The notes below the pieces were generated by a model. That model did not search any database. It saw only the letters and a program-made list of their open reading frames with translations, and had not been told where the DNA came from. This document shows positions 3,153 to 52,414 of a DNA stretch of 64,000 nt, one piece after another. The translations under genes were made by a program, and so were the position numbers. The first letter of the stretch is position 1; each line of letters begins with the position of its first letter. The stretch is taken from assembly GCA_009694735.1 (NCBI GenBank), contig SHUG01000001.1:45449-109448 (forward strand), written 5' to 3'. This stretch comes from Acidobacteriota bacterium (GTDB taxonomy: Bacteria > Acidobacteriota > Vicinamibacteria > Vicinamibacterales > UBA2999).

Positions 3153-4394
3153 GTGGCCTTCACCACTCCTTCGACTTCCTCAGAAGCAGCAACCGCCCGG
3201 CTCCAGGACATCGCTGCCGCCGTCGGTACGCCCTGCTACGTCTACGATGCGGACATGATCGGCGCCGCCTACGCCACGCTGGACCAGGCCTTCGCCGGCT
3301 ACCCGCATGCCATTCACTACGCGCTGAAGGCCAATTCGGCGCTGGCCATTGTCCGCCTGCTCCAGGCGCTTGGCGCGCACGCCGACGCCAACTCCCTTGG
3401 CGAAGTCGACGTCGCGACGCGGTGCGGGTTCCGGCCCGACCAGGTGATTTTCACCGGCGTGGGCAAGAGCGCGGCCGAGATCGATCGCGCGGTCTCACTC
3501 GGTTTGCAGGCGATCAATGTCGAATCGCCCGGTGAGCTCGATCGCATCGATCAACGCGCGATGGCACAGGGAACGGTCGCCCGTGTCGCGTTGCGCGTCA
3601 ACCCCGACATCGACGCGAAGAGCCATCCGCACATTTCCACGGGGTTGCGATCGAATAAATTCGGGGTGCCGATTGATGAGGCGCCGGCACTGTTCCGCGA
3701 GATGGCCCACCGCCAGGGCCTGACCCCGGTTGGTGCCCACGTGCACATCGGGTCCCAGATTACGACGCTCGACCCGTTGAGCCGAGCGGCCGAAGCGGTG
3801 GTCGCGCTCGCCCATTCGCTGCGCGACGAAGGCATCACCCTTCAGCATCTCGACCTGGGCGGCGGGCTTGGCATTTCCTACGATGGCGGCCCGGTCGTGG
3901 ACCCGGCCGACTACGTCCGTGCACTCGTGGCCGCGACCAGAGACAGTGGCCTCAAGATCGCGATCGAACCCGGACGGGTGCTCGTCGGTCCCGCCGGCCT
4001 GCTGCTGACCACCGTCGTCGACGTGAAGCAGTTCCCCGGAGCGAAACGCTTCGTCGTCGTCGATGCCGGCATGACCGAGCTGATGCGGCCGGCTCTCTAT
4101 AACGCGTTCCATCGGATTGAGCCGGTGCTGCTACGGGCGGGCGACTCCGGGCCCGTCGACGTGGTGGGTCCGATCTGCGAAAGCACGGACTCGTACGCGC
4201 GCGACCGCCAGCTGGCCCCGGTGGCGGTCGGCGATCTCCTGGTCGTGCGTGACGTTGGCGCCTACGGGGCGGTCATGGCCCACACCTACTTGCGCCGGCC
4301 GCTGTCGCCGGAGGTGATGGTGGAACGCGGCGAGTGGCGCGTCATCCGCCGCCGCCAAACCCTCGACGAACTGCTCGCCCTCGAGACCGAATGA
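3153..4394 (+). CDS. lysA: Diaminopimelate decarboxylase
   Basis: GTG start at 3153; HYALKANSALAIVRLL, VGAHVHIGSQI, LDLGGGLGISYDGG, CESTDSYARDR. Confidence 0.93.
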   Translation: MAFTTPSTSSEAATARLQDIAAAVGTPCYVYDADMIGAAYATLDQAFAGYPHAIHYALKANSALAIVRLLQALGAHADANSLGEVDVATRCGFRPDQVIFTGVGKSAAEIDRAVSLGLQAINVESPGELDRIDQRAMAQGTVARVALRVNPDIDAKSHPHISTGLRSNKFGVPIDEAPALFREMAHRQGLTPVGAHVHIGSQITTLDPLSRAAEAVVALAHSLRDEGITLQHLDLGGGLGISYDGGPVVDPADYVRALVAATRDSGLKIAIEPGRVLVGPAGLLLTTVVDVKQFPGAKRFVVVDAGMTELMRPALYNAFHRIEPVLLRAGDSGPVDVVGPICESTDSYARDRQLAPVAVGDLLVVRDVGAYGAVMAHTYLRRPLSPEVMVERGEWRVIRRRQTLDELLALETE

Positions 4395-5050
4395 CACTCA
4401 AGTCCCAAGCCCCCCACCTTCGCCAAGGCTCCGGTGGGCAAGCAAGCCCCAAGCCGCGGGGGCACTTGATCGTTTTCGAAGGCCTCGATCAAAGCGGCAA
4501 GCAGACCCAGGCCGAGCGGCTGCTGGCGGCCTTTCGCGCGGCTGGGCTCGGCGCCGAGTTCCTGACGTTCCCCGAATACACCACGGCCATTGGCACCGAG
4601 ATCGGCCACGCGCTGCAGGGCGAGCGCCACTACGACCCCGACACCCTGCAACTGCTCTACATCGCCAATCGCTTCGAGTTCCGCCCGCGCATCAGGCAGT
4701 GGCTGGATGAGGGGCGAATGGTGGTGTGCGATCGCTACCTCGCCTCCAGCATTGCCTACGGCGAAGCCCAGGGCCTCGACGCCGCGTGGCTGACGGAGAT
4801 TCAATGCCGCTTGCCGCAACCGTCACTGACGTTGCTACTCGACATCCCGCCCGCCGCGTCGCTCACTCGCAAGCAGGTGGCGCGCGACAAGTTCGAGCGC
4901 GACTTGCCGCTGCTTGGCCGCGTGCGCGAAAGTTACCTTCGCCAGGCCGGGCGAGAGGCCGGCTGGGTGCACCTCGACGGCGCTCGCGACAAGGATGCCG
5001 TGTCGGCAGAGGTGCTTAGCGCCGTCCGGTCACGACTCGGGCTGCTGTAA
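4391..5050 (+). CDS. tmk: dTMP kinase
   Basis: LIVFEGLDQSGKQTQAERLLAAF, VCDRYLASSIAYGEAQGL; N-terminus carries repeat-encoded HLRQGSGGQ. Confidence 0.92.
   Translation: MTLKSQAPHLRQGSGGQASPKPRGHLIVFEGLDQSGKQTQAERLLAAFRAAGLGAEFLTFPEYTTAIGTEIGHALQGERHYDPDTLQLLYIANRFEFRPRIRQWLDEGRMVVCDRYLASSIAYGEAQGLDAAWLTEIQCRLPQPSLTLLLDIPPAASLTRKQVARDKFERDLPLLGRVRESYLRQAGREAGWVHLDGARDKDAVSAEVLSAVRSRLGLL
4411..4445 (-). repeat. Family-1 hairpin element, within tmk 5' coding region and inside a 7-bp-period array
   Basis: ccaccttcgccaaggctccggtgg core at 4414-4437. Confidence 0.75.
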
Positions 5051-5720
5051 GGGCCCGCACTTCTTTCACTCCCGCGGCCTTCAACACCCGCGCGCAGGCG
5101 TCCAGCGTCGCGCCGGTGGTCGACACGTCATCCACCAGCACGACGACTGCAGGAATGTGGCGTCCGGCTTCTTGAGCGCCGTAGCCTTGGCGGAGGCGGT
5201 TAGCCGGACCGTTCGCCACGACAAATGCGTCACGCACATTGTGGTGACGTTCGTCCGCGGGCAGTTCGATTTGAGAGACCGTGTAGCGAACGCGGCGCAG
5301 AAGGGGAGCCACCGGCAAGCCGAGTTGGCGCGCCAGGTCGTCGGCCTGGTTGAAGCCGCGGGCGCGCTCGCGGCGCGGATGCAGCGGCACGGGCACCGCC
5401 AGATCGGCGGTTGCCAACATCGCCGTGCCGCTCTCCCGCATCAGCCCGCCGAGCGGCTTCGCGATCGAGCGCCGCCGCTCGTACTTCAGCGCGTGAATGA
5501 TGTCGCGGAGGCGGCCTTCATACAGGTCGACTGCGCACGCCCAGTCCACGGCGTGACGGCCGCGCGGGTGCTCGTTCAACGACGTGCCGCGACGAATCGA
5601 CGCCCAGCAGCGCTCGCACACCGCGCCGTTCAGCGGCTGCAACAGCACCTGCGAACAGGCGGCACACGTCGGCTCGAAAAGGGAAGAGAGGAGAGAGTTG
5701 GCGAGGGCGCTCAGGGTCAT
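5016..5720 (-). CDS. comF: ComF family phosphoribosyltransferase-like protein
   Basis: CAACSQVLLQPLNGAVCERC zinc-finger-like start, VVLVDDVSTTGATLDAC PRPP motif; repeat-encoded insert NRLRQGYGAQEAGRHI. Confidence 0.88.
   Translation of the reverse strand: MTLSALANSLLSSLFEPTCAACSQVLLQPLNGAVCERCWASIRRGTSLNEHPRGRHAVDWACAVDLYEGRLRDIIHALKYERRRSIAKPLGGLMRESGTAMLATADLAVPVPLHPRRERARGFNQADDLARQLGLPVAPLLRRVRYTVSQIELPADERHHNVRDAFVVANGPANRLRQGYGAQEAGRHIPAVVVLVDDVSTTGATLDACARVLKAAGVKEVRALTAARVVTGRR
5152..5210 (+). repeat. Composite repeat: family-1 element in the loop of a REP-like hairpin, in-frame in comF
   Basis: ggaatgtggcgtccggctt-cttgagcgccgtagccttggcggaggcgg-ttagccggacc; 55/59 identical to 13775-13833. 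Confidence 0.85.
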
Positions 5721-5750
5721 CAGGCGGACCCAGTCCCGGGCCTTCTGGCA

Positions 5751-6272
5751 CTAATCCTGGTCTGGTAATTCGTGGCGCACGGCGCTGCCCCACAGGCGAT
5801 CGAGCGCGTAGAAGTCCCGTGCGTGCTTCGAGAACACGTGGACGACGAAGTCGAAATAGTCGAGCAGCACCCATTCCGCCCGCGCGTAACCTTCCACGAG
5901 CGACGGACGCTGCTTCTGCGACTTGAGCGCTTCTTCCACCGAATCAGCAATGGCCTGCACCTGCCGCGGATTGGCACCTGAACAGATCACGAAGTAATCC
6001 GTGAACGCGCCCGCCTTCTTCAGGTCGAGCACCACCACGCCGGTGGCCTTTTTGTCCTGCGCCGCCTCAATCACTGCCTGGATCGACTTCGGCAACTTGG
6101 GCAAGCGCGGCGATGCCGCCTTCGTGCTTGCCGCGCCGGAGCCCGATGACTTGTCCACCGTAGCCTTGGCGAAGGTGGAAGCTTTGGCGGAGGCGGGGCG
6201 AAGGCGGGTCGTTTTTGGTTTCCGCGAACTCAGAGTCTTTGCCATGCAAGGTGCTTTCCAGTTGTCGGGCAA
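5751..6272 (-). CDS. rsfS: Ribosome silencing factor
   Basis: KKATGVVVLDLKKAGAFTDYFVICSGANPRQVQAIADSVEEALK...GYARAEWVLLDYFDFVVHVFSKHARDFYALDRLWG; alternative start at 6245. Confidence 0.93.
   Translation of the reverse strand: MPDNWKAPCMAKTLSSRKPKTTRLRPASAKASTFAKATVDKSSGSGAASTKAASPRLPKLPKSIQAVIEAAQDKKATGVVVLDLKKAGAFTDYFVICSGANPRQVQAIADSVEEALKSQKQRPSLVEGYARAEWVLLDYFDFVVHVFSKHARDFYALDRLWGSAVRHELPDQD
6149..6200 (+). repeat. Family-1 element, in-frame in rsfS N-terminal region
   Basis: acttgtccaccgtagccttggcgaaggtggaagctttggcggaggcgg. Confidence 0.8.
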
Positions 6273-6274
6273 CC

Positions 6275-6934
6275 CTAATGGGCGGCCCCCACATACAAAC
6301 GATGGGTCGAAACGTAGGCGGCAACGGATGCGGGAACCAGGTCGCCAATGCTCTCACCCGCGCGAACGCGTCGCCGAATCTCCGTAGACGACACGTCGGG
6401 GGTCGCGGTTTCAATCAAAATGACGCGGGTTTTTCCGTCAGGCGTGGGGCTTGGGGCTTGAGGCTTGAATAGATCCGGTGTCGTCATGCGGTCGGCAAGG
6501 TCGGGGACACGCGCTTGCAGTGAGTGTAGCGTGATTCCGGGCCGTGCGACGACGGCGAAGTGAGCGAGGTCGAGGACGGCGGGGTAGCGCGACCAGGTGG
6601 CAATTTCTGCGAACGCATCGGCTCCGATGATGAAGAAAAACTGAGACGTCGATGTGGCGCGCAGCGCGGTCAGCGTGTCGAACGTATAGGACGGGCCGTT
6701 GCGCGTCAGCTCGATGTCCGACGCGGTCCAACCCTGCTGTTCGGCGGCCGCCAGTTCGGCCATCGCCAAGCGCGCCTCGGGCGAGGCGCTGGCCGCCGTG
6801 GCGCGATGGGGCGGGATGCGAGACGGCACCAGCATCACGCGGTCGAGGCGCAGCGCGGCCTGGGCGCGCAGCCCGGCCGTGATGTGACCGTTGTGAATGG
6901 GATCGAAGGTGCCGCCGAGGACGCCGAGCGTCAT
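6275..6934 (-). CDS. nadD: Nicotinate-nucleotide adenylyltransferase
   Basis: MTLGVLGGTFDPIHNGHI; VSSTEIRRRVRAGESIGDLVP. Confidence 0.95.
   Translation of the reverse strand: MTLGVLGGTFDPIHNGHITAGLRAQAALRLDRVMLVPSRIPPHRATAASASPEARLAMAELAAAEQQGWTASDIELTRNGPSYTFDTLTALRATSTSQFFFIIGADAFAEIATWSRYPAVLDLAHFAVVARPGITLHSLQARVPDLADRMTTPDLFKPQAPSPTPDGKTRVILIETATPDVSSTEIRRRVRAGESIGDLVPASVAAYVSTHRLYVGAAH
6441..6468. repeat. 7-bp-period array inside nadD
   Basis: ggcgtgg ggcttgg ggcttga ggcttga. Confidence 0.7.
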
Positions 6935-8115
6935 CGCTTCTTGGGTGTGCCGCTGCGAAGGGGTGGCATCAGCGCGGGGTTGTAATCCGCCGGCACCTCC
7001 GCCTCCGCCAAGGCTTCCACCTTCGCCAAGGCTACGGTGGACAGGCCGGCGGACAAGTCGCCGGTCGCGTCCTCGCCTAGCGCAAGGGCCTTGGCTTCGA
7101 GCTCGCGCGCCTTGGCAATGATCGGCCAGGCGGCTTCAATCAGTTCCTTCACGCCCGTGCCGGCGACCGCGGAGATCTGGAAGAACTTCAGCTTCAATTT
7201 CTTCGCGCGTTTCTCGAGGGCGGTGACGCGCTTCGGATCGTCGACGGCGTCGATCTTGTTCGCGGCGACGAGGTGCGGCTTGGCGAGCAGCTCGGGATTG
7301 TAGAGTTCGAGCTCCTGGCGGATGGTGTCGAGGTCTTCCACCGGGTCGCGACCCGAGGCGCCGGACACATCGACCATGTGGATGATCACCTTCGTGCGCT
7401 CGATGTGGCGCAGAAACTGGTGACCGAGACCGTGCCCTTCGTGCGCGCCTTCGATCAAACCCGGAACGTCGGCCACCACGAAGTCGCGGTCGCCGCTGAG
7501 CGCCACGACGCCAAGGTTCGGCGTGAGCGTCGTGAACGGGTAGGCGGCAATCTTTGGTTTCGCCGCGGAGATGACCGAGATCAGCGTCGACTTTCCCGCG
7601 TTGGGATAGCCGACCAGGCCGACATCCGCCAACAGCTTCAGCTTGAGGTGAAGGTCGAACTGCTGCCCTGGCTCGCCCGGCTGCACCTTGCGCGGCGCGC
7701 GATTGGTCGCGGTGGCAAAGTGCGCGTTGCCGAGGCCGCCTCGTCCGCCCTGAGCGAGCAACACGCGCTGGCCGACAATCGTGAGGTCCGCCGCCTGTTG
7801 CTTCTCGCCGGTCTCCGGATCGATCTTGAACACCAGCGTGCCGACCGGGACTGGAATTTCCATGTCGCGGCCACCGCGGCCAGTGCGCAGGGCGCCCGCG
7901 CCGTTGCCGCCGCGCTGGGCCTTGTAGTCGGGGTTGAAGCGGAAGTGGACGAGCGTGTTGCGGTGGGGGTCGGCGACGAGGAAGACGGAACCGCCCGCAC
8001 CGCCGTTGCCGCCATCAGGTCCGCCCTTGGGGACGAACTTCTCGCGACGGAAGCTGAGCGATCCGCTGCCTCCGTCGCCTGCCTTGATGTGGATGTCGAC
8101 TTCGTCGACGAACAC
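6931..8115 (-). CDS. obgE: GTPase ObgE/CgtA
   Basis: MFVDEVDIHIKAGDGGSGSLSFRREKFVPKGGPDGG; VGYPNAGKSTLISVISAAKPKIAAYPFTTLTPNLG. Confidence 0.97.
   Translation of the reverse strand: MFVDEVDIHIKAGDGGSGSLSFRREKFVPKGGPDGGNGGAGGSVFLVADPHRNTLVHFRFNPDYKAQRGGNGAGALRTGRGGRDMEIPVPVGTLVFKIDPETGEKQQAADLTIVGQRVLLAQGGRGGLGNAHFATATNRAPRKVQPGEPGQQFDLHLKLKLLADVGLVGYPNAGKSTLISVISAAKPKIAAYPFTTLTPNLGVVALSGDRDFVVADVPGLIEGAHEGHGLGHQFLRHIERTKVIIHMVDVSGASGRDPVEDLDTIRQELELYNPELLAKPHLVAANKIDAVDDPKRVTALEKRAKKLKLKFFQISAVAGTGVKELIEAAWPIIAKARELEAKALALGEDATGDLSAGLSTVALAKVEALAEAEVPADYNPALMPPLRSGTPKKR
7001..7058 (-). repeat. Family-1 element, in-frame in obgE C-terminal extension
   Basis: gcctccgccaaggcttccaccttcgccaaggctacggtggacaggcc. 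Confidence 0.8.
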
Positions 8116-13774: not shown

Positions 13775-13833
13775 GGAATGTGGCGTCCGGCTTCTTGACC
13801 ACCGTAGCCTTGGCGAAGGTGGTTAGCCGGACC
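13775..13833 (+). repeat. Composite repeat: family-1 element in the loop of a REP-like hairpin, topA/Uma2 convergent gap
   Basis: ggaatgtggcgtccggctt-cttgaccaccgtagccttggcgaaggtgg-ttagccggacc. Confidence 0.85.
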
Positions 13834-16009: not shown

Positions 16010-17359
16010 GTGTGCGTGATTCACATCATCGGCGGCGGCCTGGCTGGTTGCGAAGCGGCCTGGCAGGCCGCTGAGACCGGCGCCGACGTCACCATTCACG
16101 AGATGCGGCCGGTGCGGCCGACGGCCGTGCACCAGACCGACGGGCTCGCCGAGTTGGTCTGCAGCAATTCCTTCCGCGCCGACAAGGTCGACAACGCGGT
16201 GGGGCTGATCAAAGAAGAAATGCGTCGGCTCGGCTCTCTCGTCATGCGAGCAGCCGATGCCACGCGCGTGCCGGCGGGCGCGGCGTTGGCGGTGGATCGT
16301 CATGCCTTCTCCAAGGCCATGACCAATGCCGTGCAGGCGCATCCGCGCATCCGCGTCGATCGTGAGGAAGTCGTGAAGGTGCCGGGCACCGAATGGTCGC
16401 CGGTGATTATCGCCACCGGCCCGCTGACCTCCGAGGCGTTGTCGCAGGACATCCAGGCGATGGTCGGCGAGGAGCACCTGTCGTTCTACGACGCGATCAG
16501 CCCGATCGTGCTGGCCGAATCGATCGACATGTCCAAGGTCTTTCGTGCCTCGCGGTGGGGCCGCAACGTGTGGAGTGCCGACCCCGGTGAGGCACTCGAG
16601 ACGACCGCGGAAGGCGACTACCTGAACTGTCCGATGAGCAAGGCGGAGTACGACGCGTTCCATGCGGCGCTGGTCTCGGCCGAGTCGGCCACCGTCCACG
16701 ACTTCGATAACACAAAATTCTTTGAGGGTTGCCTGCCGATCGAAGTGATGGCGCACCGCGGCGAGGGCACGCTGCGGTTTGGGCCCATGAAGCCGGTCGG
16801 CCTCAAGGATCCGCGCACCGGCCAATTGCCCTACGCGGTCGTCCAATTGCGCCAGGACACCCTGGCCGGCGATCACTACAGCCTCGTCGGCTTCCAGACC
16901 CAGATCAAGTGGGGCGATCAATCGCGCTTGCTCAAGCTGATCCCAGGGCTCGAGAATGCCGAGTTCGTCCGCTTCGGCATGGTCCACCGCAACACCTACA
17001 TCCGCGGTCCCAAGGTGTTATTGCCAACGTGGCAGACGCGCGATCGCGCCGATCTGTTCTTCGCCGGACAGGTGTCGGGGGTCGAGGGCTACGTCGAATC
17101 TGCCGCGTCGGGCCTGGTCGCCGGCCGCAATGCCGCCGCTCTCGCGCGCGGCGAAACGCCACAAGCGCCACCGCGAACGACGGCGATCGGGTCGCTGGCG
17201 TATTACGTGTCGCACGCGGATCCGAAGACGTATCAGCCTACCAACATCACGCACGGCATCATGCCGCCGCTCGACAATCCGCCGCGCGACAAGATGAAGA
17301 AGAAGCTGATGATTGCCGAGCGCGCGCTGGCTGACCTCAACAGGTGGCTTGAGGCGTGA
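16010..17359 (+). CDS. trmFO: Methylenetetrahydrofolate-tRNA-(uracil-5-)-methyltransferase
   Basis: IHIIGGGLAGCEAAWQAAETGADVTIHEMRPVRPTAVHQTDGLAELVCSNSFR. Confidence 0.96.
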   Translation: MCVIHIIGGGLAGCEAAWQAAETGADVTIHEMRPVRPTAVHQTDGLAELVCSNSFRADKVDNAVGLIKEEMRRLGSLVMRAADATRVPAGAALAVDRHAFSKAMTNAVQAHPRIRVDREEVVKVPGTEWSPVIIATGPLTSEALSQDIQAMVGEEHLSFYDAISPIVLAESIDMSKVFRASRWGRNVWSADPGEALETTAEGDYLNCPMSKAEYDAFHAALVSAESATVHDFDNTKFFEGCLPIEVMAHRGEGTLRFGPMKPVGLKDPRTGQLPYAVVQLRQDTLAGDHYSLVGFQTQIKWGDQSRLLKLIPGLENAEFVRFGMVHRNTYIRGPKVLLPTWQTRDRADLFFAGQVSGVEGYVESAASGLVAGRNAAALARGETPQAPPRTTAIGSLAYYVSHADPKTYQPTNITHGIMPPLDNPPRDKMKKKLMIAERALADLNRWLEA

Positions 17360-17413
17360 GGCTTGCCTGCCCGCCGAAGCCTTGGCGTAGGTGGGGGGCT
17401 TGAGGCTTGGGAG
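17346..17413 (+). repeat. Family-1 element flanked by 7-bp-period ggcttga units, trmFO 3' end
   Basis: ggcttga ggcgtga ggcttg-cctgcccgccgaagccttggcgtaggtgg-ggggcttgaggcttggg. Confidence 0.75.
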
Positions 17414-26088: not shown

Positions 26089-28062
<1,974 letters not shown>

Positions 28063-28074
28063 GTCGGGCTCGGC

Positions 28075-28112
28075 GCTTCCACCTTCGCCTCGGCTACGGC
28101 GGACAAGCCGCG
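28075..28112 (-). repeat. Family-1 element (left member of inverted pair)
   Basis: gcttccaccttcgcctcggctacggcggacaagccgcg. Confidence 0.75.
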
Positions 28113-28212: not shown

Positions 28213-28256
28213 GGCGCGACTTGTCCGCCGTAGCCCTGGCGAAGGCGGAAGCCGCG
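28213..28256 (+). repeat. Family-1 element (right member of inverted pair)
   Basis: ggcgcgacttgtccgccgtagccctggcgaaggcggaagccgcg. Confidence 0.8.
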
Positions 28257-28905: not shown

Positions 28906-28960
28906 CGGCGACTTGTCCACCGTAGCTTTGGCGAAGGTGGAAACCTTGGCGACGGCGGGC
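28906..28960 (+). repeat. Family-1 element upstream of the HTH-REC gene
   Basis: cggcgacttgtccaccgtagctttggcgaaggtggaaaccttggcgacggcggg. Confidence 0.8.
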
Positions 28961-46464: not shown

Positions 46465-49436
46465 TGGTGCCGATGTGGCGTCCGGCGTTAGCCGGACCGA
46501 TGGGGTCTCGCGTCGCCGTCCTCGTGGCGGCGCTCTTGCTGGCGGGCGTCACGACGGCCCGTGCCGAACAGTACCTGGGGCGTACGGTGGCCGACGTGCG
46601 GGTCGACGTGGCCGGCGTGGTGCTCGCCGACCCGGCGGTGATCGACCTGGTCGAGACCCGCATCGGCGAGCCGCTCACCATGATCAACATCCGCTCGACG
46701 ATCGATCACCTCGTGGGCCTCGGACGTTTCGAGGACGTGCGGGTGTTTGCGTCGCCGTCGGATCAGGGCGTGATCGTGCGCTGGCTGTTGACGCCGGTGC
46801 GCCGCATCGGCACGGTCGAGGTCGACGGGGATGCCCAGCTGCCTGATGCGGCGATTCGCGCGGAACTGGCCGACCGTTTTGGCGCGCAGCCGTCGGTGAG
46901 CCGGGTGGCCGACATGGTCGGCGCTCTCGAGGCGTTCTATGCCGACCGCGGCTTTCGCCGGGCAGCCATCCTGTCCCGGCTCGAAGAGGACGAGCCGCAA
47001 CCCGAACGGGTGACGCTGGTGTTGACCGTGAGCGCCGGCACGCGCGTCCCGGTTCGCGTCGTCACCGTGACGACGACGGCCCTGGTGCCCGAGGCGGAAG
47101 TGTTGCGGCGCCTCAATCTCCAGGCCGGGCGGCCATTCGATCGCACGGCCCTCGACACCCGGATCGCCGGCTACGAGGAAGAACTGCGTGGGCGTGGCTA
47201 CTACGAGGCGCGCGTGCGGCAGTCCCACGACTTTTCCGCCGATGGCACCGGCGTCGACGTGCGAGTTGAAGTGGAGGTCGGTCCGCACGTACGGGTCGTG
47301 TTCGCGGGTGATCCGCTGGCCGGCGATGCCGAGACCCTGGTGCCGATTCGCGAGGAACGCTCGGTCGACGAGGACCTGCTCGAAGACGCCAGCCGCCGCA
47401 TTGAAGACGCCCTGCGACGCGAGGGCTACCGGGCGGCGCAGGCGCCATACGTCCGCCGCCAGGATGGCGACCAGGTGGTGGTCACCTTCACCGTCACGCG
47501 CGGACTGCAACATCGCGTCGGCACGGTCGATGTGGCCGGCCTGTCGGGACTCGTTCGCGCGGAACTCGCGCCGCTGTTGCAAGTGAGGACCGGTGAGGCG
47601 TTTGTGGAGGCGCGGGTCGGCGCGGTGGCGGCCGCCATCACCGAGTTGTACCGTGTCCGTGGTTTCACGCAGGCGGCGGTCAAGCCGGCGATCCAGGTGC
47701 TGCCCGCGGAGACGCGCGGCGGCGCGTCGTTCCGGCCCGTCGACGTCAGATTCGACATCCAGGAAGGGCCCCAGACCCTCGTTTCCGTGGTTGCCTTTGA
47801 AGGCACCAATGCCATCCGCCCCGCCCAACTCGCCGCGCGGATGGCGCTGGCGGCGGGCCGTCCCTTTTATCGACCGCGGCTGGCGGCTGATCGCGACGCT
47901 TTGCAGCGCGTGTATCGCAGCTTGGGCTACCAGAGCGTGTCAGTCATCTCGCAGCTCGCGTTCTCGAACGAGCGGAGCCGGGTGGCCATTACGTGGACGG
48001 TCGCCGAAGGGCCGCGGATTCTCGTCGACCGCGTGTTGATCAAGGGCAATCGACGAACCGGCATCGATCTCATCCGGCGGGAACTCACCATTCGCTCCGG
48101 CAGCCCGATCAGTGATGATGCGTTGGTCGAGAGCCAGCGGCAGCTGGCCGCCACCGGCCTGTTCCGGCGGGTGCGGGTCAGCGAGTTGCCGCGCACCGGA
48201 TCCAACACCCGCGATGTGCTGGTCGATCTCGAGGAAGCGCCATCGACGACGGTCAGTTATGGTGGCGGTCTCGAAGTCGGGCGGATCGGCGCGCGGGATG
48301 CCAATGGTCAGGTCGGCGACGCGCTGGACGTGGCGCCCCGCGGGTTCTTTGACATCAGCCGTCGCAACCTCTGGGGTAAGAACCGGTCGGTGACCCTGTT
48401 CGCCCGTGTCACGTTGCGCAAGAACGGCTCCGCCGGCGCGGGCGGCGAGCGCACCTACGGGTTCAACGACTACCGCGGCCTCTTCACCTTTCGCGAGCCG
48501 CGTGCGTTTGGCACGACCGGCGACGCGCAGCTGACCGCGTTTGTCGAGCAGGGATTGCGAACCAGCTTCGACTTCAACCGCAGGGGCGTGACCGCCGACT
48601 ACGCGAAGCGGTTCGGATCGTTCACGACCACCGCTCGCTACACCTTCGACTACACGAAGCTCTTCAACGAAGAGATCGCCGCCGGCGATCAGCTGCTGAT
48701 CGATCGGCTGTTCCCGCAGGTCAAGCTGTCGAAGGTGTTCGCGTCGATCCTGCGCGACTCGCGCGACGATGTGCTCGATCCGCACAAGGGTGCGGTGGTG
48801 GGGGTCGACGCGTCGGTCGCCGCGAAGGTGATGGGATCGGAGGTGGGGTTCGTGAAGACCTTCGCCCAGGGCTTCATTTACCGCCGCCTGCCGGGCCGCG
48901 GGTTTGTGCTGGCGGCCGGCGCGCGCGTTGGCGTGGCGGTCGGCTTCAAGCAGACCGTGCCCCCGGTGGACGAAATCGCGGCAGTGGCGAGGGGACCGGT
49001 CGCGCGGGGCACCTCGCGGGCGGCTGTGTTCCCGACGGTGATTCGCGAACTGCCAGCCAGTGAGCGGTTTTTCGCGGGTGGCGACACCACGGTGCGCGGC
49101 TTTGCGCTGGACCGGCTCGGCACCCCAGAAACCCTGGACCGGCAGGGCTTCCCGCAAGGCGGCAACGGGCTGGCAGTGTTCAATCTCGAGGCGCGTGCGC
49201 CGTATTGGAACAACCTGCAGTTTGTCTGGTTCACCGATGCCGGCAATGTGTTCAAGACCGCGTCTGACCTCCGCCTTGACGAACTGCGCTTCAGCAGTGG
49301 CCTGGGCTTTCGTTACCGTTCGCCGATTGGCCCACTGCGGGTCGATTGGGGATTCAAACTAGGCACGCGCCTGCTGCTGACCGGTGGTCGCGAACGCTCC
49401 AACGTCTTGCACATTTCACTGGGGCAGGCGTTCTGA
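46464..49436 (+). CDS. BamA/TamA-like outer membrane protein with POTRA repeats
   Basis: 990 aa; POTRA-like segments then barrel; GGDTTVRGFALDRLGT, FTDAGNVFKTASDLRLDELRFSSGLGFRYRSPIGPLRVDWGFKLG; first codons repeat-derived, alternative start at 46500. Confidence 0.92.
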   Translation: MVPMWRPALAGPMGSRVAVLVAALLLAGVTTARAEQYLGRTVADVRVDVAGVVLADPAVIDLVETRIGEPLTMINIRSTIDHLVGLGRFEDVRVFASPSDQGVIVRWLLTPVRRIGTVEVDGDAQLPDAAIRAELADRFGAQPSVSRVADMVGALEAFYADRGFRRAAILSRLEEDEPQPERVTLVLTVSAGTRVPVRVVTVTTTALVPEAEVLRRLNLQAGRPFDRTALDTRIAGYEEELRGRGYYEARVRQSHDFSADGTGVDVRVEVEVGPHVRVVFAGDPLAGDAETLVPIREERSVDEDLLEDASRRIEDALRREGYRAAQAPYVRRQDGDQVVVTFTVTRGLQHRVGTVDVAGLSGLVRAELAPLLQVRTGEAFVEARVGAVAAAITELYRVRGFTQAAVKPAIQVLPAETRGGASFRPVDVRFDIQEGPQTLVSVVAFEGTNAIRPAQLAARMALAAGRPFYRPRLAADRDALQRVYRSLGYQSVSVISQLAFSNERSRVAITWTVAEGPRILVDRVLIKGNRRTGIDLIRRELTIRSGSPISDDALVESQRQLAATGLFRRVRVSELPRTGSNTRDVLVDLEEAPSTTVSYGGGLEVGRIGARDANGQVGDALDVAPRGFFDISRRNLWGKNRSVTLFARVTLRKNGSAGAGGERTYGFNDYRGLFTFREPRAFGTTGDAQLTAFVEQGLRTSFDFNRRGVTADYAKRFGSFTTTARYTFDYTKLFNEEIAAGDQLLIDRLFPQVKLSKVFASILRDSRDDVLDPHKGAVVGVDASVAAKVMGSEVGFVKTFAQGFIYRRLPGRGFVLAAGARVGVAVGFKQTVPPVDEIAAVARGPVARGTSRAAVFPTVIRELPASERFFAGGDTTVRGFALDRLGTPETLDRQGFPQGGNGLAVFNLEARAPYWNNLQFVWFTDAGNVFKTASDLRLDELRFSSGLGFRYRSPIGPLRVDWGFKLGTRLLLTGGRERSNVLHISLGQAF
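46473..46499 (+). repeat. REP-like hairpin at the start of the BamA-like ORF
   Basis: gatgtggcgtccggcgttagccggacc. Confidence 0.75.
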
Positions 49437-50059
49437 TGCGCTTCATGCTGTGCGCGCTGCTGGCCGCCTGGCTGGGGCGCGGGCTTGATGCCCAGGCACC
49501 GAGGGGCGACCTGATCGAGCGCACCCTCGCCATTGTCGGCACGCAGGTGATCACGCTGAGCGATGCGCGTGCCGCGATTCGGCTCGGCTTGATCGAGGCC
49601 GGGGGAGAAGCTGATCCGGTGTCAGTGACCCAGCTACTCGTCGACCGCGAGCTGGTCCTGCGCGAAGTGCAACGCTACGCGCCGCCCGCGCCGTCCGAGG
49701 GTGCGGTGGACGCGGGAATGGAAGAGATCCGGACGCGCCTGCCTGGCGCGGACGAGCTGTCGCGAGTGCTCGACGAGGCCGGCTTCACCGAGTCGCGCCT
49801 CCGCGCGTGGGTGCGCGACGACTTGCGCGTCGTGGCCTACTTGGCGCAGCGGTTTGCGTCGGCCAGCACGCCGACCGACACCGAGGTGACCGCCGCTTTT
49901 GCGCAGCAGCGCGCTGACTTCGAGCGCTCGGGTACCACCTTCGAGCAGGCCGCGCCCACCCTGCGTGAGCGACTGGTGGCGTCACGGCGCCGTGAGCTGA
50001 TTTCAGATTGGCTGTCAGACCTCCGTCGCCGCACGGCAGTCGTCATCCTGCCGCAATAA
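49436..50059 (+). CDS. SurA-N-like periplasmic protein
   Basis: RTLAIVGTQVITLSDARAAIRL...LLVDRELVLREVQRYAPP; no parvulin domain seen; start overlaps upstream stop. Confidence 0.7.
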   Translation: MRFMLCALLAAWLGRGLDAQAPRGDLIERTLAIVGTQVITLSDARAAIRLGLIEAGGEADPVSVTQLLVDRELVLREVQRYAPPAPSEGAVDAGMEEIRTRLPGADELSRVLDEAGFTESRLRAWVRDDLRVVAYLAQRFASASTPTDTEVTAAFAQQRADFERSGTTFEQAAPTLRERLVASRRRELISDWLSDLRRRTAVVILPQ

Positions 50060-50118
50060 GTGAACCGGCTTCACTTTTACACTTTTACGCAAACCGTAAA
50101 AGTGAAGCCGGTTCACTT
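50058..50118. terminator. 23-bp perfect inverted repeat between convergent genes, candidate bidirectional terminator
   Basis: aagtgaaccggcttcacttttac (50058-50080) and gtaaaagtgaagccggttcactt (50096-50118), 15-nt loop. Confidence 0.75.
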
Positions 50119-50947: not shown

Positions 50948-52363
<1,416 letters not shown>

Positions 52364-52414
52364 GGCATGGCGACGGCTAAAGCCATCGCCCTCCGCACCT
52401 GACGCACTAGAGTC

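Follow-up and report, generated by a model that had tools for sequence, protein, structure and literature searches.

A probable REP-type mobile hairpin, itself carrying a nested 30-nt hairpin, in a variable loop of acidobacterial ComF

Introduction

The comF reading frame of an Acidobacteriota bacterium (Vicinamibacterales) contains a short hairpin within a hairpin. What is this DNA, how did it come to lie in a coding sequence, and why does the reading frame survive it? We studied the locus in a window of 64,000 nt (the whole stretch of DNA that was analysed), in the rest of the genome and in related genomes. The first-pass annotation had read the segment as a composite mobile repeat inside an intact comF gene, tolerated in a loop of the protein in the manner of Rickettsia palindromic elements (RPEs).

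Repetitive extragenic palindromes (REPs) with GTAG or GTGG heads, associated with the transposases known as RAYTs, have been described (Nunvar 2010, PMC2817692; Di Nocera 2013, PMC3733652), and inverted REPs flanking a RAYT gene are the arrangement that defines REP/RAYT systems (PMC2817692). GTAG REPs inside genes, and RAYTs in Acidobacteria, have also been reported (PMC3733652), so that an intragenic REP is of a kind already known. We argue here, with a probability of roughly 0.85, that the comF insert is a non-autonomous REP-type mobile hairpin that landed in a variable loop of ComF and persisted there.

Results

An intact comF gene encloses a composite repeat

The gene and the parts of the repeat are as follows.

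5016..5720, minus strand: comF, phosphoribosyltransferase-type ComF/GntX-like protein, intact (ORF, Pfam, NCBIfam, orthologues)
5155..5210, plus strand: composite R1[R2], 56 nt, encoding GPANRLRQGYGAQEAGRHI in comF (genome repeat matches)
5155..5170, plus strand: left half of R1 with its GTGG head (ATGTGGCGTCCGGCTT), stem arm 5162-5169 (consensus and stem of 120 R1 copies)
5171..5200, plus strand: nested 30-nt R2 hairpin in the R1 loop (CTTGAGCGCCGTAGCCTTGGCGGAGGCGGT) (exactly absent from the R1 copy in G005 comF; half-to-half gaps of 1, 31 and 61)
5201..5210, plus strand: right half of R1 (TAGCCGGACC), stem arm 5202-5209 (consensus and stem of 120 R1 copies)

The comF ORF is stop-free over 234 codons. 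It matched PF00156 (Pribosyltran; E 1.8e-8) and two NCBIfam comF/GntX models (TIGR00201 at E 4e-22, a second at E 1e-20), both under the strict NCBI cut-offs. ComF orthologues were found in 38 of 40 relatives; the named relatives of the protein are from Acidobacteriota metagenome-assembled genomes (MAGs), one of them labelled Vicinamibacterales. A PDB search with the single ComF protein gave no match, and a profile search returned only generic phosphoribosyltransferases. Genes were called with a codon model that allowed wide overlaps. The reading frames of comF and tmk overlap tail to tail by 35 nt (5016-5050).

R1 is the outer hairpin, GTRGCGTCCGGCTT|TAGCCGGACC, with the consensus ATGTRGYGTCCGGCTTNAGCCGGACC over 120 copies and a GTRG head beside a short-loop palindrome. 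R2 is a 30-nt unit, or ten codons, consisting of CTTGTCCNCCGTAGCCTTGGCGAAGGNGG plus one base (also seen as the pattern CTTGTCCNCCGTAGCCTTGGCGAAGGNGGA), and in the composite it forms the tip of the R1 stem-loop. Minimum-energy folding predicts two nested stems for the comF composite. The repeat had been placed at 5152-5210 (59 nt); its end was right, and its start was 3 nt too generous. The encoded peptide, GPANRLRQGYGAQEAGRHI, lies as originally described between NVRDAF and the PRPP motif VVVLVDDVSTTGATL, and the catalytic motifs are intact. QGYGAQEAGR and LRQGYGAQEAGR are peptides predicted for the same protein; a literature search for LRQGYGGQ gave no match.

An AlphaFold2 model of ComF, built from 21 sequences, had a mean pLDDT of 89.9. 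Residues 173-185 of the insert fell below 50 while nearby residues reached at least 90; this is the sole segment of three or more residues below 50, and confident strands stand on either side. Low pLDDT is consistent with disorder and is not proof of it; the loop, in which the hairpin is tolerated, is probably disordered.

The repeat belongs to high-copy families with maintained hairpins

An 86-nt query matched the genome at 41 sites (E up to 1e-3). The R1 palindrome with at most two mismatches occurs in at least 170 copies in the assembly, and R2 in about 80-100 (100 places at up to three mismatches, composite-internal R2 included). The R1[R2] pattern with at most three mismatches was found in 22 places here and 15 in a congener. 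The controls for all three patterns gave 0, so that the repeat stands far above chance. R1 copies numbered about 248 in the congener G005 and 437, 361 and 127 in G028, G021 and G036, respectively; R2-like units have a patchy distribution in the class, being present in 76 of 193 genomes. Further copies in the window are listed below.

4414..4442, minus strand: R2, 5' end of tmk, within heptad-like repeats
6150..6178, plus strand: R2, near the N-terminus of the rsfS ORF
7017..7045, minus strand: R2, 3' coding region of obgE
13778..13833, plus strand: second composite R1[R2] of the window (repeat matches, gap analysis)
17366..17394, plus strand: R2, intergenic, in GGCTTGG-type repeats
28079..28107, minus strand: R2, inverted partner of the copy at 28220..28248
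28220..28248, plus strand: R2, partner of the inverted copy at 28079..28107
28912..28940, plus strand: R2
46473..46498, plus strand: simple R1

Heptad-like repeats of GGCTTGGGGCTTG enclose the R2 copies at 4399-4455 and 17353-17409, with several further cases in the genome. The window also holds two direct copies of a 104-nt sequence (26629-26732 and 27472-27575; 71% identical, 843 nt apart).

The stems have been kept through compensatory changes. Among 76 distinct R1 copies, stem pair 12-19 was paired in 100%, against 57% after shuffling, and showed 24 changes on both sides. Pair 7-24 was paired in 99%, against 75% after shuffling, and showed 13 such changes. For R2, pair 7-26 was paired in 92%, against 62% after shuffling. 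These copies are paralogous, and the cells of the comparison are not independent events. Covarying stems would also be expected if the element were selected as an RNA or DNA structure in the comF mRNA, for instance for mRNA stability or as a gyrase site, rather than merely tolerated, and functions of this sort have been suggested for the REPs of other bacteria (PMC3733652). However, covariation between paralogues is explained equally well by a mobile element's need for its hairpin, Rfam gave no match, and R1, R2 and composite B (described below) are all lacking from five of nine congener comF loops. We regard such selection as improbable.

One ComF loop carries different repeats in different congeners

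We compared the segment between NVRDAF and the PRPP strand in nine congeners, G000 being the genome of the window. The loop holds R1[R2] in G000 and R1 alone in G005, where it is shorter by exactly the 30-nt R2 unit and identical to G000 in its R1 part. In G006 it holds R2 alone. In G002 it holds an unrelated composite, B, in which GGACAAACCTT...AAGGTTTGTCC encloses a core like R2; B has about 30 more close copies in that genome, at scattered places and up to 98% identical over 58 nt. The loops of G003, G008, G001, G007 and G004 contain a short direct-repeat-like sequence. The alignment shows orthologues whose loop is without the composite or carries other repeats, and we found no set of orthologues sharing the segment while lacking homology to repeats elsewhere. 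In G002, a second copy of B lies about 600 nt from the comF copy, near the 5' side of comF (L015, about 1431 in comF orientation).

In the ComF tree, G002 groups with G001, apart from G000 (98/96), and composites A (that of G000) and B therefore look like separate events. G000, G005, G006 and G003 are not separated in this tree, which is compatible with more than one order of insertion at comF.

Could the loop peptide instead be a functional, selected part of ComF, its likeness to a repeat being secondary? The insert is kept in frame and its R1 part is exactly common to G000 and G005, as such selection would have it. Against this, the loops of eight congeners are unrelated or different in sequence (about 13-25 residues, from various repeats and frames) while the flanking motifs are conserved and intact, the same repeat DNA is read in several frames in other genes, and the insert is predicted with the low confidence that disorder would give. 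We consider a selected peptide very improbable.

Composites grow in steps of 30 nt

The distance between the two R1 halves peaked at 1 nt (n=88), 31 nt (n=21) and 61 nt (n=2), with a few scattered single values and one more 61-nt gap in a stem variant; the same scan of a reversed-sequence control was empty. The 61-nt cases proved to be R2 inside R2 inside R1. R2 within R2 was found 16 times with an identical 13-nt gap, and the hosts of R2 include R1, R2 itself and a different palindrome. From these steps and contents we conclude that each nested unit adds 30 nt, or ten codons. We also asked whether every lone R2 copy lies within a variable outer stem. This was unsupported overall (mean stem 4.84, versus 4.53 in shuffled sequence); it held only for particular hosts, namely R1, R2 and the heptad repeats.

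Junctions and orientation are the same in almost every composite. The fixed junctions favour spread of the composite as a unit, while the G000/G005 pair at comF allows R2 to have invaded R1 repeatedly. On the latter account R2 would be the primary mobile unit, outer palindromes its preferred hairpin-loop targets, and R1[R2] the outcome of many separate R2 insertions rather than of one spreading composite. R2 or R2-like cores do occur in R1, in R2 (with its identical gap), in composite B of G002 and in a comparable element of G010, and the same comF site carries the composite in one genome and simple R1 in another. Near-uniform junctions and orientation are, however, what a single spreading composite predicts, and the closely similar, scattered copies of B also fit spread as a unit. 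We therefore hold many separate R2 insertions to be unlikely, though deserving real weight.

We further propose, tentatively and at somewhat less than even odds, that R2 is a distinct, frame-neutral 30-nt hairpin with a fixed insertion point at the tip of hairpins, its own among them, that REPs carrying R2 grow in 30-nt steps, and that such elements together repeatedly rewrite permissive protein loops across Vicinamibacterales.

R1 is linked to a RAYT gene

The genome has three Y1_Tnp genes. One, an intact gene on contig C66, matched PF01797 (E 4.8e-9), lies above the NCBIfam cut-off for the REP-associated tyrosine transposase REP_Tyr_transpos (NF047646), and keeps the HVH motif and a downstream Tyr. 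Two R1 copies lie close upstream of this gene, and an R1 and a composite close downstream of it, all four facing inward. The closest RAYTs elsewhere, 47-50% identical and from other genera or families (C123 of G028, C59 of G021, C273 of G036), are flanked by R1 too, and those of G022 (C114) and G020 (C10) by REPs with changed stems. Three R1-flanked RAYTs passed the motif filter for the RAYT tree, in which they form one group (92/88). None of the six RAYTs of G005 is closely flanked by R1 on both sides despite its abundant R1 copies. No RAYT flanked by R2 as its own repeat was found; among the 23 RAYT loci scanned in the genus, R2 lay within 1 kb at C66 only, inside a composite.

R1 is high-copy, dispersed and mostly extragenic, and by the features tested it is a RAYT-associated REP. 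The likeness to RPEs drawn at first holds as an analogy; as to family, the tested features are those of RAYT-associated REPs.

Could these patterns come from faulty assembly or binning of metagenome-derived genomes? The draft is fragmented (182 contigs, 86% complete), and the related named records are MAGs. Yet the same families, junctions and RAYT arrangement recur in separate genomes, some with far fewer contigs, and the frames are open, so that we give such an artefact next to no credence.

Several other REP-like elements came to light. At 50058-50118 the window has an inverted repeat, AAGTGAACCGGCTTCACTTTTAC.../...GTAAAAGTGAAGCCGGTTCACTT, closely like one around another RAYT of the genome (C21; L129, about 5690-6400). 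At 52323-52407 a long hairpin, GGAGGGCGACGGCTT.../...AGCCATCGCCCTCC, resembles REPs beside the RAYTs G005_C2b and G008_C10 and represents a further REP family in the window. The RAYT C37b of G010 (L196, about 4379-4624) is flanked by GTAGTGCTCGGCTT[CTCTGGCTCGCCGTAGCGCAGCAGCGCGAAGGCGGC]AGCCGAGC. This is a third composite whose core is like R2, and it looks independent of the others.

Other proteins accommodate the repeats

Copies inside genes were counted in 1.33 Mb of the genome (about 41%, read as stretches chosen for bearing copies), taking at least 45 nt inside called genes as intragenic; the gene calls, made in this analysis, are approximate. Within coding sequences lay 26 of 121 R1 copies, 37 of 80 R2 copies and 8 of 22 composites, at a coding density of about 91%; the remaining R1 copies were intergenic or at gene ends. 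R1 thus mostly avoids gene interiors, and the comF insertion is not typical of it.

All eight insert-bearing proteins scanned (composite or R2) keep open frames and recognisable Pfam domains: PriA, a PLP enzyme, a thiolase, an FAD-binding dehydrogenase, an ABC transporter, an FAD oxidase, an S9 peptidase and an M16 peptidase. Some of these sites are empty in relatives. The in-frame composite of the PLP-enzyme gene is absent from seven congeners; those of G000 and G005 are related but unequal. In the S9 peptidase gene, one R2 insert makes the sequence exactly 30 nt longer than that of the closest congener. At another site of this gene, G000 has R2, G003 an oppositely oriented R2-like unit, and G002 and G004 a third repeat, whereas G005, G008, G007 and G001 are free of repeats there. 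The repeat of G002 and G004 (L297, L298) is a candidate mobile repeat of about CCTTCGACTTCRYTCAGGGCAGG, with the peptide SPSTSLRAG.

Discussion

The reading we prefer, a mobile hairpin that landed in ComF and stayed, can be put as a sequence of steps. R1 would be a REP served in trans by a RAYT, an HUH/Y1 single-strand transposase such as that encoded by C66. Cleavage of single-stranded REPs by RAYTs has been shown in the E. coli, Stenotrophomonas and Marinomonas systems (PMC8266576), and by analogy the same mechanism may apply to R1 and C66. Insertion of R2 into the tip of an R1 hairpin would have produced a larger, still-pairing R1[R2] that could spread as a unit. A composite copy, or R1 and then R2, would have landed in the variable comF loop between the NVRDAF segment and the PRPP strand. 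There it would have persisted because its length keeps the frame, the frame is stop-free, and the loop is probably disordered and tolerates almost any sequence; the insert may be neutral for ComF function.

R1 resembles RAYT-associated REPs in its GTRG head, its short, near-perfect palindrome, its more than 100 copies, its inverted copies around a Y1 transposase gene, its compensatory stem changes and its mostly intergenic or gene-end positions with some in-gene copies. It differs in that an appreciable share of its copies have a further hairpin unit of 30 nt in the loop, which lengthens them in steps of +30 or +60. REPs within other palindromes are known as GTAG-15 of A. variabilis, GTAG-23 of T. 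roseum and CGTC-1 of H. neapolitanus (PMC3733652, section 7). R1[R2] is likewise a hairpin in a hairpin, but R2 is also found within R2 and within several different outer palindromes, and inside genes the composite is frame-neutral.

Like RPEs, the composite is palindromic, lies in frame in many genes and is tolerated by the protein; in comF and in the eight scanned proteins the product remains intact. The likeness drawn here is one of behaviour; R1 has a GTRG head and flanks a RAYT. RPE-4 and RPE-6 have been equated with CGTC-tagged REPs, and CGTC repeats were reported without transposase association (PMC3733652).

Different REPs at about the same site were reported in recB of X. campestris and X. 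oryzae (PMC3733652, section 15). The ComF loop is like this case, with different REPs at one site of orthologous genes, and goes beyond it: nine congeners show some five kinds of insert, and the pattern recurs in the S9 peptidase gene. In the open-access literature we found no description of a 30-nt self-nesting unit or of one loop occupied by several kinds of repeat in one genus; the nesting unit and the repeated occupation of one loop are apparently new.

Intragenic REPs are known mostly as lists. The genus-level series at one loop (R1, R1[R2], R2, another composite, other repeats) opens both insertion and tolerance to direct test. A hairpin-nesting unit of exactly ten codons offers a simple reason for the survival of repeats in genes. 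It is also a source from which a large group of environmental bacteria gains new protein segments of low complexity, and small DNA parasites can rewrite one spot of a protein repeatedly.
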